This document shows, piece after piece, positions 3,315 to 32,642 of a DNA stretch of 64,000 nt. The stretch covers positions 31,633-95,632 of the forward strand of contig JAIDTL010000035.1 in the NCBI GenBank assembly GCA_029060725.1, given 5' to 3'. Every line of letters begins with the position of its first letter. Within the stretch, counting starts at the first letter, position 1. The translations under genes were made by a program, and so were the position numbers. The notes beneath the pieces are model-generated. The model made no database searches, was not told the DNA's origin, and was given only the letters and a program-made list of their open reading frames with translations. The stretch comes from Muribaculaceae bacterium. Lineage in GTDB: Bacteria; Bacteroidota; Bacteroidia; Bacteroidales; Muribaculaceae.

Positions 3315-4676
3315 ATGGATTCGAAGAAATTTCTTCTGCAAGAAAAAGATATACCGACTGCATGGTATAATATCGTTGCAGATATGCCGATAAAGCCGCA
3401 GCCAATGATCAATCCGGCTACCGGCGAGCCTCTAAAAGCTGAAGACTTGATGCCACTTTTCTCAAAAGAGGCTTCTCTTCAAGAGATGAACTCAACCGAT
3501 AGGTTTATTGAGATTCCTGAAGAGGTGAGAGAAATGTATAAGATCTATCGTCCTACGCCACTCGTTAGGGCAAGGGGGCTTGAAAAAGCACTTAACACAA
3601 AAGCACATATTTATTTTAAGAATGAAAGTGTAAGTCCTGTAGGAAGCCACAAGCTTAATTCTGCCATTCCTCAGGCATATTTCTGCAAAAGGGAGGGGGT
3701 TACGAATATCACAACAGAGACCGGTGCAGGACAATGGGGAGCAGCACTATCCCTTGCAGCTAAACATTTTGGTCTTAATCTTGCTGTGTATATGGTAAAG
3801 GTGTCTTTCAATCAGAAACCATATCGCAGATCTATTATGCAGACTTATGGAGCCGAAGTGATAGCCTCGCCATCTATGTCTACTAAAGCCGGACGCAAGA
3901 TAATAACTGAAAATCCGACATATCAAGGTTCACTGGGAACTGCAATCTCTGAGGCTGTTGAACTCGCAATGTCAACAGAAAACTGTAAGTATGTACTTGG
4001 ATCTGTATTAAACCATGTGGCACTGCATCAGACCGTAATTGGTCTTGAGGCTGAAAAACAGATGGAGATGGCAGGGGAGTACCCCGATGTTGTGATTGGA
4101 TGCTTTGGTGGTGGAAGTAATTTCTCAGGCATTTCATTCCCATTCATGCGCCATAATTTCAGTGGAGAGCGTAATACCCGTTTTATTGCGGCAGAACCGG
4201 AGTCTTGTCCGAAACTGACACGCGGAAAACTACGCTATGATTTTGGTGATGAGGCAGGATATACCCCAATGATTCCTATGTATACTCTCGGTCATGATTT
4301 TGCACCTGCCAATATTCATGCCGGAGGTCTCCGCTATCATGGAGCCGGCTCTGTGGTAAGCCAGCTTAAGAGTCAGGACCTTATCGAGGCTGTAGATATA
4401 CATCAACTTGAGACATTTGCAGCAGCAACACTGTTTGCTCAGACTGAGGGAATCATTCCTGCTCCTGAAAGTTCTCATGCAATTGCAGCTGCTATCCGTG
4501 AGGCTAAAAAAGCAAATGAAGAAGGTACAGCACCTGTGATTCTCTTCAATTTATCAGGACATGGACTTATTGATATGGCAGCCTACGATAGCTATATCTC
4601 AGGCGATCTCACTAATTATCACGTATCAGATGAAATGATTGAAAAGAACACTCAAAATCTGAAAAAAGTGAAATAA
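3315..4676 (+). CDS. trpB: Tryptophan synthase beta chain, TrpB2 type
   Basis: A PLP enzyme that condenses indole with serine to form tryptophan. At 453 residues it is the longer TrpB2-type paralogue and not the roughly 400-residue TrpB1 that pairs with TrpA. The PLP-lysine segment reads SPVGSHKLNSA, followed by ETGAGQWG and the glycine-rich phosphate loop CFGGGSNFSG. The ORF could be extended to 3195, but the added residues are AT-rich hydrophobic nonsense, and MDSKKFLLQEKDIP is the natural N-terminus. No trpA or other trp genes are nearby, so indole salvage is a possible role (inference). The upstream region lacks a clean TAnnTTTG box. Confidence 0.93.
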   Translation: MDSKKFLLQEKDIPTAWYNIVADMPIKPQPMINPATGEPLKAEDLMPLFSKEASLQEMNSTDRFIEIPEEVREMYKIYRPTPLVRARGLEKALNTKAHIYFKNESVSPVGSHKLNSAIPQAYFCKREGVTNITTETGAGQWGAALSLAAKHFGLNLAVYMVKVSFNQKPYRRSIMQTYGAEVIASPSMSTKAGRKIITENPTYQGSLGTAISEAVELAMSTENCKYVLGSVLNHVALHQTVIGLEAEKQMEMAGEYPDVVIGCFGGGSNFSGISFPFMRHNFSGERNTRFIAAEPESCPKLTRGKLRYDFGDEAGYTPMIPMYTLGHDFAPANIHAGGLRYHGAGSVVSQLKSQDLIEAVDIHQLETFAAATLFAQTEGIIPAPESSHAIAAAIREAKKANEEGTAPVILFNLSGHGLIDMAAYDSYISGDLTNYHVSDEMIEKNTQNLKKVK

Positions 4677-4703
4677 AGAAAGAGGTATCCAACGACTTGG
4701 TAG

Positions 4704-4724
4704 GGACGCACGGCTCGTGCGTCC
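4704..4724 (+). terminator. REP-like hairpin 1, likely trpB2 terminator
   Basis: GGACGCACG-gct-CGTGCGTCC forms a 9-bp perfect GC-rich stem followed by TTTAATTTT. It sits 27 bases after the trpB2 stop. It shares its sequence with the second hairpin 30 bases on, so this may be a REP-type palindrome that also serves as a terminator. Confidence 0.75.
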
Positions 4725-4752
4725 TTTAATTTTGAATAATTAGAGCATAAAA

Positions 4753-4777
4753 AAGGACACACGATTCGTGCGTCCTT
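4753..4777 (-). terminator. REP-like hairpin 2, likely serA terminator
   Basis: AAGGACACACG-att-CGTGCGTCCTT is an 11-bp stem with one A-C mismatch on the plus strand. On the minus strand the mismatch becomes a G-U wobble and the stem runs into TTTTTTATG, so it fits a rho-independent terminator for serA. It is a near copy of hairpin 1. Confidence 0.75.
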
Positions 4778-4801: not shown

Positions 4802-5719
4802 TTATTTGTTAACTTGGTATTTGTTCCACCCATCTTTGAGATAGGCGAGGACTTGCTCAGCAGCGGCAACACCGGCGTTGAAATTGGCTTCTGCAGTTTG
4901 AGCTCCCATTTTCTTTGGAGTGAAGAATACGCGGGCTCCAAATTTCTTTTCAAATTCTTCAGCTGCATCAGGCTTGATATCGCTGACATAGCGAAGATCA
5001 GGACGTTCTTCAAGAGCCTTGATCAGACCCTCTTCATCTATTACTTCCTTACGTGCTGTATTGACAAGGACACCACCTTTAGGCATTTTCATCACGAGAT
5101 CATAACCTATACTTTTCTTTGTCTCTGCAGTAGCGGGAATATGTAGCGATACAAAATCATTTTCCGAGAATAGAGCATCTACGTCATGCACCGGACGAAC
5201 ACCTTCAGCTTCCATGACTGCATCATCAACAAATTTGTCGAGAGCGGAGATCTTCATACCGAATCCTTTGGCAATTCTTGCAACGTTTCTGCCTACTTGA
5301 CCGAAAGCATAAATACCAAGGTTTTTATCTTTCAATTCAGAACCGGATTTGCCATTATATTGGTTGCGGCACATCATAACTACCATTCCGAATACGAGTT
5401 CTGCAACGGCATTAGAGTTCTGTCCGGGAGTGTTCATGACGCAAATGCCATGTTTTGTAGCAGCTTCGAGGTCTATATTGTCATAGCCAGCGCCGGCTCT
5501 TACGATGACTTTCAGTTTTGGAGCAGCCTCCATAACTTCATCATCTACTTTGTCGCTTCTGACGATAAGACCTTCTACATCCTTTACCGCTTCAATGAGA
5601 TCTTCGCGTGTTCCCATCTCGACGAGTTTCAGTTCATTGCCACTTGCATTGACGGTATTGGCGATAGCCTTAACCGCATCTTTTGCAAAGGGCTTTTCAG
5701 TGAAAACTAATACTTTCAT
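4802..5719 (-). CDS. serA: D-3-phosphoglycerate dehydrogenase (short, Lys-type)
   Basis: Catalyses the first step of phosphoserine synthesis, 3-phosphoglycerate to 3-phosphohydroxypyruvate with NAD+. At 305 residues it is the short form with only substrate- and cofactor-binding domains and no ACT regulatory domain, so serine feedback through ACT is not expected. The nucleotide-binding stretch is YAFGQVGRNVARI; VLVNTARKEVIDE carries the active-site Arg. The usual catalytic His in 'PHxGAxT' is replaced by Lys (TPKKMGAQT, about residue 267), as in the type IIIK enzymes known from Bacteroidetes and Entamoeba. It lies 21 bases downstream of serC in the same operon. Confidence 0.93.
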   Translation of the reverse strand: MKVLVFTEKPFAKDAVKAIANTVNASGNELKLVEMGTREDLIEAVKDVEGLIVRSDKVDDEVMEAAPKLKVIVRAGAGYDNIDLEAATKHGICVMNTPGQNSNAVAELVFGMVVMMCRNQYNGKSGSELKDKNLGIYAFGQVGRNVARIAKGFGMKISALDKFVDDAVMEAEGVRPVHDVDALFSENDFVSLHIPATAETKKSIGYDLVMKMPKGGVLVNTARKEVIDEEGLIKALEERPDLRYVSDIKPDAAEEFEKKFGARVFFTPKKMGAQTAEANFNAGVAAAEQVLAYLKDGWNKYQVNK

Positions 5720-6968: not shown

Positions 6969-8354
6969 TCAGATGATTTGCTGTTTAAGCTTTTCCACAT
7001 ACTCATCTATGCGATGAAGTTCAGCCGGAATATCTATCTCTTGAGGGCAATGATGGACACACTTTCGGCATCCTATGCAGTGGCTCGCTTGCCGCAGCTT
7101 CGGGACTGACCTGTCATATCCTACGAGAAATGCACGGCGTGCTTCAGCATATTTAGGCGATTGCTTTGAAGTCGGGATATTATCTTCGTTGACACACTTA
7201 TTATAATGCAGTAGATTGGCAGGAATATCAATGCCATACGGACACGGCATGCAATATTTACAATCGTTGCAAGGCACCGTAGGATATTGTTTCATAATGT
7301 CTGCTGTCTCCTGAAGAAAAACCAAATCTTCTTCTGTAAGGGGATTGAGTGGACTATATGTATGGATATTATCTTCAAGATGCTCCATATAGGTCATACC
7401 ACTCAATACAGTTAATACGTCAGGGTGTGTACCCGCAAAACGAAATGCCCATGAAGCCACACTCTCCTCAGGATTGCGCTGCTTGAGTCTGTTGGCTATA
7501 TGATCCGGCACTTTTGAAAGTCTGCCTCCGAGCAGAGGCTCCATGATCACTGCAGGTATTTCTCGCTTTGCCAGCTCTTGATAGAGATAATTAGCATTAG
7601 TGCTTAATGGTTCTTCTTCAGCTGTATGTTTCCAATCCATATAGTTAAGCTGAATCTGAACGAAATCCCATTTATACTCATCATGCTTAGATAGAAGATA
7701 GTCGAATACTTCTATGTCTCCATGATAAGAGAATCCAAGATTTTTGATCCTTCCCGCTTCTCTCTCTTTCATGAGGAAATCAAGAATTCCATTGTCAAAG
7801 TATCTTTGATTTAAAGTTTCCAATCCTCCGCCTCCTACCGCGTGGAGAAGCATATAATCGATATAATCAGTTTGGAGTTCCTTCATCGAGTTCTTATACA
7901 TTTCGATGGAGGCTTCTCTTGATTGGGTTGCAGGGTTAAAGTTGGAGAGTTTTGTAGCTATATAATAGCTTTCGCGGGGATGACGGCTCAATGCGATTCC
8001 GGTTGCTTTTTCTGATTTCCCTTGGCAATATACAGGAGATGTATCGAAATAGTTTACGCCGTTTTCAAGAGCTGTGTCTACAAGACGGTTCACCATTTCC
8101 TGGTCTATCTCCTCTTCGCCTTCTGCTCCCCCTTCGACGGGCTTAGTTGGCCATCTCATACACCCATACCCTAAAATTGATACCTTTTCTCCGGTTTTGG
8201 GATTAGTACGATAGGTCATCTCTCCTTCCTTCAGATCAGGAGAAGCAGAAACCGCTTTAGTGGCATTTTTACATCCGGCTAAAGTAAGACTTGCAACGGA
8301 AGTGCCGATTCCGAGTCGCTTAAGGAAACCGCGACGGCTTATGTTATTATTCAT
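6969..8354 (-). CDS. Exported aldo/keto reductase with C-terminal 4Fe-4S ferredoxin domain
   Basis: 461 residues. The N-terminus has a twin-arginine motif (SRRGFLK, residues 5-11) followed by a lipobox-like LTLAGC, suggesting folded Tat export as a lipoprotein (inference). The body is an aldo/keto reductase barrel with the expected Asp and Tyr in YFDTSPVY, Lys in IATKLS and His in MLLHAVG. The C-terminus carries two ferredoxin-type Cys motifs, CNDCKYCMPCPYGIDIP and CIGCRKCVHHCPQEIDIP. It lies 14 bases downstream of the polyferredoxin gene, which may feed it electrons. The physiological substrate is unknown. Confidence 0.88.
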   Translation of the reverse strand: MNNNISRRGFLKRLGIGTSVASLTLAGCKNATKAVSASPDLKEGEMTYRTNPKTGEKVSILGYGCMRWPTKPVEGGAEGEEEIDQEMVNRLVDTALENGVNYFDTSPVYCQGKSEKATGIALSRHPRESYYIATKLSNFNPATQSREASIEMYKNSMKELQTDYIDYMLLHAVGGGGLETLNQRYFDNGILDFLMKEREAGRIKNLGFSYHGDIEVFDYLLSKHDEYKWDFVQIQLNYMDWKHTAEEEPLSTNANYLYQELAKREIPAVIMEPLLGGRLSKVPDHIANRLKQRNPEESVASWAFRFAGTHPDVLTVLSGMTYMEHLEDNIHTYSPLNPLTEEDLVFLQETADIMKQYPTVPCNDCKYCMPCPYGIDIPANLLHYNKCVNEDNIPTSKQSPKYAEARRAFLVGYDRSVPKLRQASHCIGCRKCVHHCPQEIDIPAELHRIDEYVEKLKQQII

Positions 8355-30540: not shown

Positions 30541-30616
30541 GGGCTTGAAATAATAAAGAAAGTTGCTATCGCATACAGCTGAAAATAAGCTTTAAGGCGA
30601 CCATAGAATCAGCCGT

Positions 30617-30733
30617 GATGGAATTTTTTAGGTCATCAGGAGTGTTAAAATGGGGTAAAAATGCCCATTTTAACACTCCTGATGGAAATTTTTGGGAATT
30701 TCAGCGTTTTTCAGCTTCCAAGACTTTGATGAA
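30617..30733. repeat. Left 117-bp direct repeat with 20-bp-arm palindrome
   Basis: Matches 32510-32626 at 112 of 117 bases with no gap. It contains a perfect inverted repeat, ATCAGGAGTGTTAAAATGGG (30635-30654) and its complement (30664-30683), with a 9-base loop. The hairpin is itself bracketed by the near-identical direct words GATGGAATTTTTTAGG and GATGGAAATTTTTGGG. The right-hand 33 bases are the last 11 codons of rloB. Neither strand has a T-tract directly after the stem, so it is a poor intrinsic terminator. Confidence 0.9.
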
Positions 30734-31258
30734 TTCATATATGTTTGATGATGGATTTGTAGGCCAAACCATTTTCTCTGCCTTTAAACTTGCTGCATCC
30801 TTATTAGCCAGCAAATGCAATTGCTGATCCATTGTCAACTTACCTTTCATATATGCTTTCCATACTTGATGGCTTGACATAAGCTCCTTAAGTATTGAAT
30901 CCGGTTGAACATACCTACGATGGTTCTTCGAATGCAGCATATACCACAATTCTATTGATGGATTAGATAATATGGTTGTGCCGGGAAGACTCATAAGTTT
31001 CTCCACAATGCAATCCACGTCAGCATCATATATGAAGAAGACCTGACAATCGTCATTTCTGGTAAGACCCAGTTCCTTCAAATATTGGTTTACGAGTCGT
31101 AAAGATACTGCATTTCCACTTACTTTTGTCTTAATTGTGATTGGAAGTCTATAATGCCGCTTTAATAGATTGACGTATTCCTCCTCCGTCTCTCCTTCAC
31201 ATACAACAAGAAACACTTTATGAGGTTTGCGAGTCTTCTTATACCTTCGTTCTCTCAT
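30701..31258 (-). CDS. rloB: RloB-family TOPRIM-like protein (AbiLii-like)
   Basis: 185 residues. The N-terminus is basic (MRERRYKKTRKP), followed by the RloB/TOPRIM signature VVCEGETEEEY (Glu near residue 21), then FFIYDADVDCI with the DxD acidic pair, and NPSIELWYML, typical of RloB. Known relatives are RloB (restriction-linked ORF) and AbiLii of lactococcal AbiL, where an ATPase and a TOPRIM-like protein act together in abortive infection. It lies 7 bases after the ATPase gene. It is probably the effector nuclease triggered by the ATPase (inference). Its last 11 codons lie inside the left direct repeat. Confidence 0.85.
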   Translation of the reverse strand: MRERRYKKTRKPHKVFLVVCEGETEEEYVNLLKRHYRLPITIKTKVSGNAVSLRLVNQYLKELGLTRNDDCQVFFIYDADVDCIVEKLMSLPGTTILSNPSIELWYMLHSKNHRRYVQPDSILKELMSSHQVWKAYMKGKLTMDQQLHLLANKDAASLKAEKMVWPTNPSSNIYEFIKVLEAEKR

Positions 31259-31265
31259 AACTGAT

Positions 31266-32432
31266 CTAAATGCCGGAAATCAAAGATTTAATATTCCCAA
31301 TATATGGCACTCCATCGAAGCGTCCCTGCAAATATGCCGCCCTGAGATCCGGAATACGCTCTATTCCATCATAGTCTGAGAGAGGTATGAATTCAGAATT
31401 CCCGTTGGTATGTTTTGTGACCAACACTATCTGCTCGGGTCGCAGTTTGTTAGTGTTAAGAAGCATGGGATTGTGGCTTGTGAATATGAACTGCATGTTT
31501 TTCGTTGCCCTTATGGCATCTAATATGAATTCCGCAAGGTAAAGATGCAGTTTCAGATCAAATTCATCTAAAAATACAGTGCATCCGTCATATTGCTTCT
31601 TAAAAAGAACCATAAGAATAAAAAGAAGTCTTTTTGTGCCTTCAGATTCCTCTTTGTCGAAATCAAATGAGATAGCAGGGTCCTCTTTGTGAAAACTGAG
31701 TAGCCTCATTTGTCCGGCTACAGTTTCATCCCATCGAATGTCAATAATGTCGCTGTCACTTACCTCTAAAGCTTTCAAAAGGACGGGGCGGCACAATTCA
31801 AAATCCTCTCTTGCTATATCCGTGAGATTGAATCCATCAATCTCAGTGATTACCCTATGTAAGAAAAAATTATAGACCACTTGGGGAATTGCCCTGTTCA
31901 TTGAACTTGCCCGACTAAGGAAAAGGGTCTTAGAACCGGTATTTGCTTCTATTTCTGCCGGGCGAGGAATTAATCCTTTTCCATATGAATAGGCGTTACC
32001 GGCTTCTCTAACAAAAACCTTTGCCTTCCTTCGATTGGGATAATGATAAAGACTTTCTGTCATGATCTTCCCGTCTTTAATAGAGAAGGAGTATTCATAT
32101 TCCACGTCATCAACCACGAAATCTATGTAAAATTCTGATGGTTTATCTTTTTCAAATTTAAATGGTTGGAAATCGAATTTATCTCCTTCATTTGAAAGGT
32201 GTGAGTTTATAATAAGATTGCGGCAGAATGCCATTGTCTTGATAATATTAGATTTTCCGGCAGCATTTCCACCGAAAAGTCCTATTATATTGACAAATTT
32301 ATCTCCATTGAAATCAATAAGGTTTTCTGTAAGTGGATCCATATTCTTATGGGATGACGAGTCAACAGTGAAGTCAAGGACCGCATCATCACGCAAAGAA
32401 AAAAAATTTTTTACCTTCAGGGCGATTACCAT
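31266..32432 (-). CDS. AAA/ABC-type ATPase, RloA/AbiLi-like
   Basis: 388 residues of the AAA_15/AAA_21 'overcoming lysogenization defect'-like ATPase class. Walker A is GGNAAGKS (residues 54-61), the Walker B region is CTVFLDEFDLKLH, and the switch is FIFTSHNPMLL. The N-terminus (MVIALKVKNFFSLRDDAVLD) has the usual self-start of this family. Paired with RloB in one operon, this is the arrangement of RloAB and AbiL; PARIS (AriA/AriB) has the same logic but a DUF4435 partner. It likely senses phage and controls RloB (inference). It has its own promoter, as an independent cassette would. Confidence 0.85.
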   Translation of the reverse strand: MVIALKVKNFFSLRDDAVLDFTVDSSSHKNMDPLTENLIDFNGDKFVNIIGLFGGNAAGKSNIIKTMAFCRNLIINSHLSNEGDKFDFQPFKFEKDKPSEFYIDFVVDDVEYEYSFSIKDGKIMTESLYHYPNRRKAKVFVREAGNAYSYGKGLIPRPAEIEANTGSKTLFLSRASSMNRAIPQVVYNFFLHRVITEIDGFNLTDIAREDFELCRPVLLKALEVSDSDIIDIRWDETVAGQMRLLSFHKEDPAISFDFDKEESEGTKRLLFILMVLFKKQYDGCTVFLDEFDLKLHLYLAEFILDAIRATKNMQFIFTSHNPMLLNTNKLRPEQIVLVTKHTNGNSEFIPLSDYDGIERIPDLRAAYLQGRFDGVPYIGNIKSLISGI

Positions 32433-32453: not shown

Positions 32454-32484
32454 CAAAGATAAAAAAAATCATCTTATAATGCAA
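32454..32484 (-). promoter_or_regulatory. Promoter of the RloA-RloB cassette
   Basis: Minus-strand TTG (32482-32484), 20-base spacer, TATCTTTG (32454-32461), 22 bases before the ATG. It lies between the right repeat and the ATPase gene, so the cassette carries its own promoter. Confidence 0.75.
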
Positions 32485-32509: not shown

Positions 32510-32626
32510 GATGGAATTTTTTAGGTCATTAGGAGTGTTAAAATGGGGTAAAAATGCCCATTTTAACACTCCTGATGGAAATTTTTGGGAATTTCAGCGT
32601 TTCTCTGATTCCAAGATTTTGATGAA
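32510..32626. repeat. Right 117-bp direct repeat
   Basis: Second copy of the left repeat, 1893 bases away and in the same orientation. Only 1 of the 84 non-coding bases differs (T at 32530 for C), against 4 of 33 in the part equivalent to the rloB 3' end. The palindrome is kept with 17 perfect pairs (32531-32547 with 32557-32573). A 47-codon plus-strand frame (32511-32654) also reads through it; the same frame is open through the left copy, so it may simply reflect the shared sequence. Confidence 0.9.
32594..32626 (-). pseudogene. Relic of the 3' end of a second rloB gene
   Basis: Minus-strand codons read FIKILESEKR followed by TGA, against FIKVLEAEKR-stop at the end of the intact rloB. Differences are conservative (V/I, A/S) plus one silent change, and an in-frame TGA precedes the phenylalanine. 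It appears to be the remaining end of a diverged rloB homologue, with the same 3' palindrome after it. It is only 11 codons long, so the case rests on the ungapped extension of the repeat into coding sequence. Confidence 0.6.
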
Positions 32627-32642
32627 TCAGACTTGTCTGATT
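32625..32642. repeat. 18-base perfect inverted repeat beside the right repeat
   Basis: AATCAGAC-tt-GTCTGATT sits exactly where similarity between the two long repeats ends, 24 bases before the TlpA-like gene's stop. It could be a boundary or protein-binding site, or a small hairpin by chance. Confidence 0.4.

Follow-up and report, generated by a model that had tools for sequence, protein, structure and literature searches.

The closest described system to the locus analyzed here is AbiL: the same two adjacent proteins, AbiLi and AbiLii (RloA and RloB), are encoded by a gene pair in a 64,000-nucleotide stretch of a contig from a gut Muribaculaceae bacterium (JAIDTL010000035.1; hereafter the window). 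Unlike AbiL, this pair is flanked by long direct repeats, which are missing from the more distant AbiL pairs in the genus; literature searches gave no report of AbiL accompanied by repeats of this kind. As in integron cassettes with their attC sites, an imperfect palindrome comes immediately after the final stop codon in a defence cassette present at multiple loci; unlike in integron cassettes, the repeats are near-identical within a locus, the cassettes are single and not arrayed, and no integrase was seen nearby. Integron attC was rejected as a candidate, its GTTRRRY and RYYYAAC core sites being found in 0 of 26 repeat copies. Direct repeats at the two ends, along with solo copies resembling deletion products, recall LTR-type terminal repeats and direct-repeat-bounded islands; here, however, the repeat overlaps the end of a coding gene and has a palindromic core, and a mobility gene is absent. 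MITEs and REP/REPIN sequences are likewise short palindromic non-coding elements, and one insertion of the present element is flanked by a direct duplication, but there are at most two full copies per genome (111 genomes), the duplication is 31-34 bp long, the association is with one gene pair, and the element is restricted to one genus.

A repeat search of window positions 20000-42000 identified one long direct-repeat family with copies at 30617-30734 (R2) and 32510-32627 (R1), 118 nt each, 96% identical and 1893 bp apart. A whole-genome search gave E = 1.5e-49 for the second copy against chance, and R1 and R2 are the only full copies in the whole genome of the window (G000). The locus consists of the following features:

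30616-30705: R2 element core, profile match
30617..30734, minus strand: R2, direct repeat; covers the last rloB codons and extends 84 bp beyond the stop codon
30634..30684: R2 palindromic core, 51 bp; predicted hairpin of -36.4 kcal/mol, z -9.1
30701..31258, minus strand: rloB, RloB family, AbiLii-like (Pfam PF13707, 5.7e-19; PADLOC AbiLii, 5.2e-20)
31266..32432, minus strand: rloA, AAA_21 ATPase, AbiLi-like (Pfam PF13304, 2e-29; PADLOC AbiLi, 2.2e-67)
32454..32461, minus strand: TATCTTTG, between R1 and rloA, which we take to be a Bacteroidetes-type -7 promoter motif (TAnnTTTG)
32510..32627, minus strand: R1, second repeat copy, 77 bp upstream of the rloA start
32527..32577: R1 palindromic core, 51 bp, one mismatch
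32594..32626, minus strand: rloB 3'-end relic in R1 (FIKILESEKR and stop); weaker similarity continues to ~32642

The two genes are adjacent, with a gap of 7 bp, and the PADLOC and Pfam matches show an AbiLi ATPase adjoining a RloB-family AbiLii protein, the gene composition of AbiL; rloAB is predicted to be an AbiL-type anti-phage pair with a role in defence. Only rloA and rloB lie between R1 and R2, and no transposase or integrase was found in or beside the cassette; an autonomous transposon or integrative element was rejected, as its own transposase or integrase is absent from this interval.

Read on the minus strand from 32626 to 32594, R1 contains TTCATCAAAATCTTGGAATCAGAGAAACGCTGA, which translates into FIKILESEKR and a stop, while the intact rloB ends with TTCATCAAAGTCTTGGAAGCTGAAAAACGCTGA (30733-30701), that is, FIKVLEAEKR and a stop. 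The copies differ at 4 of these 33 coding bases and at 1 of the 84 bases after the stop; the first-pass annotation had described the repeat as entering the rloB coding end with the same counts, and realignment reproduced them exactly. A weaker match between R1 and the rloB tail reaches ~49 nt upstream of the stop, and none of 200 shuffles of the bases upstream of the element equalled the observed relic match. Among the 14 rloB tails compared, the closest to the R1 tail is that of its own rloB.

The match of R1 to the tail of its own rloB exceeded all shuffles in G000, G014, G037, G045 and G085; since G000 and G014 share the same OEP/tlpA site, these five relics represent four independent sites. 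In G083, whose own rloB lies beyond the contig end, DFIEALENEK upstream of R1 (a protein-level match) plausibly marks an rloB-tail relic at a fifth independent site. In G027, G005, G042, G075, G031 and G134, an R1 relic is either missing or statistically weak. At the four independent sites the relic measures at most ~53 nt, and comparison of loci across relatives yielded no convincing longer rloB remnant upstream of R1. Because the same short relic precedes rloA at four independent sites, and plausibly at a fifth, a one-off local event is unlikely, be it the lost tandem unit or the swap at this point that had been proposed initially; the sequences compared indicate that the relic recurs with the cassette and is not a single local accident.

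Aligned copies from relatives define an element of ~91 bp, composed of two ~20-bp direct motifs (ACGACCYAAAAAWTTCCATC and variants) that lie 64 bp apart around an imperfect palindrome; the first bases of the element usually supply the rloB stop codon. Two-sided changes preserve the palindrome at 16 of 25 pair positions, and pairing is 66% in register versus 21-38% when slid by 1-3 bases (counted on mirror positions, as RNAalifold on the MAFFT alignment gave no consensus pairs). The weakest element copies (G045, G042, G035, G025 and G083) are individually little or no better than shuffled sequence, and no match to a curated RNA family in Rfam was found in four related loci containing repeat copies.

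Comparison of the orthologous locus in G000 and G014 has shown that the relic is identical at 27 of 34 positions (7 differ), the tlpA-R1 spacer, which at its low end shares a few bases with the relic, at 32 of 39, the R1-rloA spacer at 64 of 77 and the R2-OEP spacer at 66 of 75. The element, by contrast, has one change in 156 positions over both copies, with an inverted 11-bp loop excluded (relic versus element, Fisher p about 5e-8). The same pattern of a drifting relic and a held element was observed for G005 versus G055, G000 versus G079, and G027 versus G085. The relic appears to drift as a dead copy, like the adjacent non-coding DNA, and the palindromic element appears to be constrained; given both, the contrast between 4/33 and 1/84 needs no second rloB allele. 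In the G000/G014 alignment examined by eye, one of the four R1 differences is common to both R1 copies and hence older than the split, and each of the remaining three seems confined to a single copy or lineage. The palindrome loop is inverted in both G014 (L064) copies relative to both G000 copies (32527-32577 and 30634-30684), which points to exchange between R1 and R2; it is also inverted between R1 and R2 of G085 (L077). Such conservation of both copies exceeds the needs of a passive scar; they could have a regulatory role, which is compatible with mobility.

We scanned 111 genomes of the genus and 294 others of the order with the element profile; according to record titles and completeness figures, most or all of them are assemblies from metagenomes, and contig ends hold several of the repeats. 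The element was found in 25 of the 111 genomes of the genus, with a maximum of two full copies per genome, and in 0 of the 294 others. In 17 of the 25 carriers rloA or rloB adjoins the repeat, so that, although five carriers have a solo copy and in one a pair surrounds a RhuM-like gene, the repeat is not the widespread one, with no rloB nearby, that the first-pass annotation had set against its own reading. Complete pairs bracketing rloAB, ~1.84-1.97 kb apart, occupy about nine chromosome sites: at OEP/tlpA (G000, G014), trmD (G027, G085) and glgA (G005, and G055, where the pair is split over contigs), and also in G037, G045, G031, G042, G075 and G125 (R1 weak). The solo copies are found in G052, G061, G035, G023 and G133; G089 has a repeat remnant at the OEP site and lacks tlpA and rloAB there, and G043 has a related copy at a contig end. 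All 16 rloB genes with at least 43% identity have the repeat on their own contig; beside the pair at seven convincing divergent rloB loci (40% or less), neither the repeat nor matching direct repeats were found. There was no tandem array among 17 loci, and searches of phage records, plasmid records and viral contigs gave zero matches.

Several loci depart from this pattern. In G012 (L079), a 233-bp direct repeat with the same palindromic element (3718-3950 and 4892-5124) brackets a RhuM-like gene transcribed against the direction of the element; the repeat can thus bracket cargo other than AbiL. G134 (L129) has rloAB and R1, with R2 missing directly after the rloB stop, and represents a natural single-repeat derivative. 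In G042 (L071), an unrelated 106-bp direct repeat just past R2 (4657-4762 and 7826-7932) brackets a segment of ~3 kb with an AAA_14/DUF4143 ATPase; ATPase-like genes, DUF4143-type and others, often adjoin the repeat (G027, G037, G042, G045, G052, G085 and G133), as might be expected of shared hotspots for insertion. G133 (L155) also has a distant rloB with an in-frame TAG, likely a pseudogene. In G058 (L153), a distant AbiL pair has another, different direct repeat of 43 bp (88%) outside it (755-797 and 3355-3397), ~95 bp upstream of its rloA and 700 bp beyond its rloB.

Within one clade, the rloA tree and the GlgA+OEP tree give the same groups, (G000, G014), (G005, G055) and G134, yet the cassette sits at three sites among them: OEP/tlpA, glgA and that of G134. 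G042 and G032 share RloA at 91%, and their right flanks differ. Comparison of neighbour genes identified relatives without the repeat at cassette sites. The clean empty-site comparison, the sole such case, is provided by the G061 solo: an insertion of ~112 bases lies close to the 3' terminus of tatD, with 31-34 bp of the tatD end directly repeated on its two sides; in G096 (TatD 97% identical) the tatD site is uninterrupted. This solo has no rloB relic, and may be a deletion product of a relic-free cassette or an element that moved alone. In full cassettes target duplication was not above the shuffle level; it is clear only at the G061 solo. The OEP/tlpA site looks empty in G054, where tlpA is largely deleted, with a possible imperfect duplication of 17-20 bp. 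The absence of tlpA from G089 (L133, 1-193) and of most of it from G054 (L228), at the cassette site of G000, suggests repeated deletions there. For the trmD, glgA and GAPDH neighbours, relatives are clearly without the repeat, with intergenic DNA too variable for exact boundaries; for the neighbour gene in G037 no relative was found as an empty-site reference. Taken together, sister clades with the cassette at three sites, the solo copies and the one empty-site comparison support movement.

The best explanation of the observed architecture, its recurrence at many sites, the relics, the constraint on the element, its presence and absence in relatives and the empty site of one solo is that a small mobile AbiL cassette of ~2 kb, with its end located within rloB, is probably bounded by R1 and R2 as its terminal direct repeats. 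The order of the cassette would be R1, promoter, rloA, rloB and R2, with the repeat comprising the ~91-bp palindromic element and as much as ~50 nt from the 3' end of rloB. Insertion would leave a second copy of this end, including the last rloB codons, upstream of rloA, where the codons, being non-coding, would decay and the palindromic element would be retained. Recombination between R1 and R2 could then delete rloAB and leave a solo repeat. The repeat may serve as the recognition end for insertion, with the mobilising enzyme presumably supplied in trans; candidate routes of end duplication are integration of a circle into a resident repeat, rolling-circle read-through and break repair.

A tandem array that once existed and lost its upstream unit, leaving only the last rloB codons and the repeat, would also account for R1 being an rloB end with the 3' element, and the solo repeats along with the deletion in G089 demonstrate that deletions do happen here. 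None of the 17 loci retains such an array, however, and with breakpoints uniformly distributed in a unit of ~1.7 kb the probability of four remnants of at most ~53 nt is about 1e-6; four short remnants at independent sites would require a mechanism that fixes the breakpoint, and we consider tandem loss unlikely. Alternatively, the repeats could be a functional part of AbiL (a regulatory or structured RNA or DNA element, or a terminator), both copies being kept by selection and gene conversion and the rloB tail in R1 being carried along. The strong conservation of both copies between species, the two-sided changes in the palindrome and the loop inverted in both G014 copies, a sign of concerted change, fit this explanation. 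It is nevertheless quite doubtful, as solo copies exist without rloAB, one of them inserted in tatD with a direct duplication, another repeat pair flanks the RhuM-like gene, rloAB of G134 has no R2, and more distant AbiL pairs have no repeat.

The first-pass annotation had interpreted R1 as the end of another, diverged rloB allele sharing the same 3' element, with either the loss of a tandem unit or a swap of cassettes; under a swap, R1 would be what remains of a genuinely different rloB formerly present here. The greater difference in the coding part than in the non-coding part (4/33 versus 1/84) is as expected from a swap, and R1 does hold an rloB end followed by the same 3' element; the divergent allele was not supported, because the R1 tail is nearest to its own rloB, neither the R1 tail nor the R2 tail is the same in G000 and G014, and the changes in R1 resemble those of non-coding DNA, all of which makes a swap very improbable. 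Just as improbable is a dispersed repeat of the REP or MITE type whose presence on either side of rloAB is incidental. The solo copies, one with a direct duplication, and the palindromic core are in line with it, but the repeat is almost always found beside rloAB, none of the 111 genomes has many copies, and rloB coding sequence is present within R1 at several sites; it was rejected on the whole-genome match, the profile search of the 111 genomes and the absence of the element from the 294 other genomes of the order.

Returning to the mobile cassette, it is conceivable, though on balance we doubt it, that it represents a new kind of non-autonomous mobile defence cassette, with a palindromic end that extends into the coding end of its cargo and is duplicated upstream at insertion. 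It would be moved by a putative host or phage enzyme making a long (about 30-bp) target duplication, and its cargo could be AbiL or another gene, for instance the RhuM-like one. The hopping of small defence genes without a transposase is a poorly understood process. With a genus-specific repeat at many sites, solo copies and an empty site, both ends of the moving unit may be defined and the mobilising enzyme may be searched for, while the coding scar would provide both a direction and a neutral clock and would record the length of cassette end copied on insertion.
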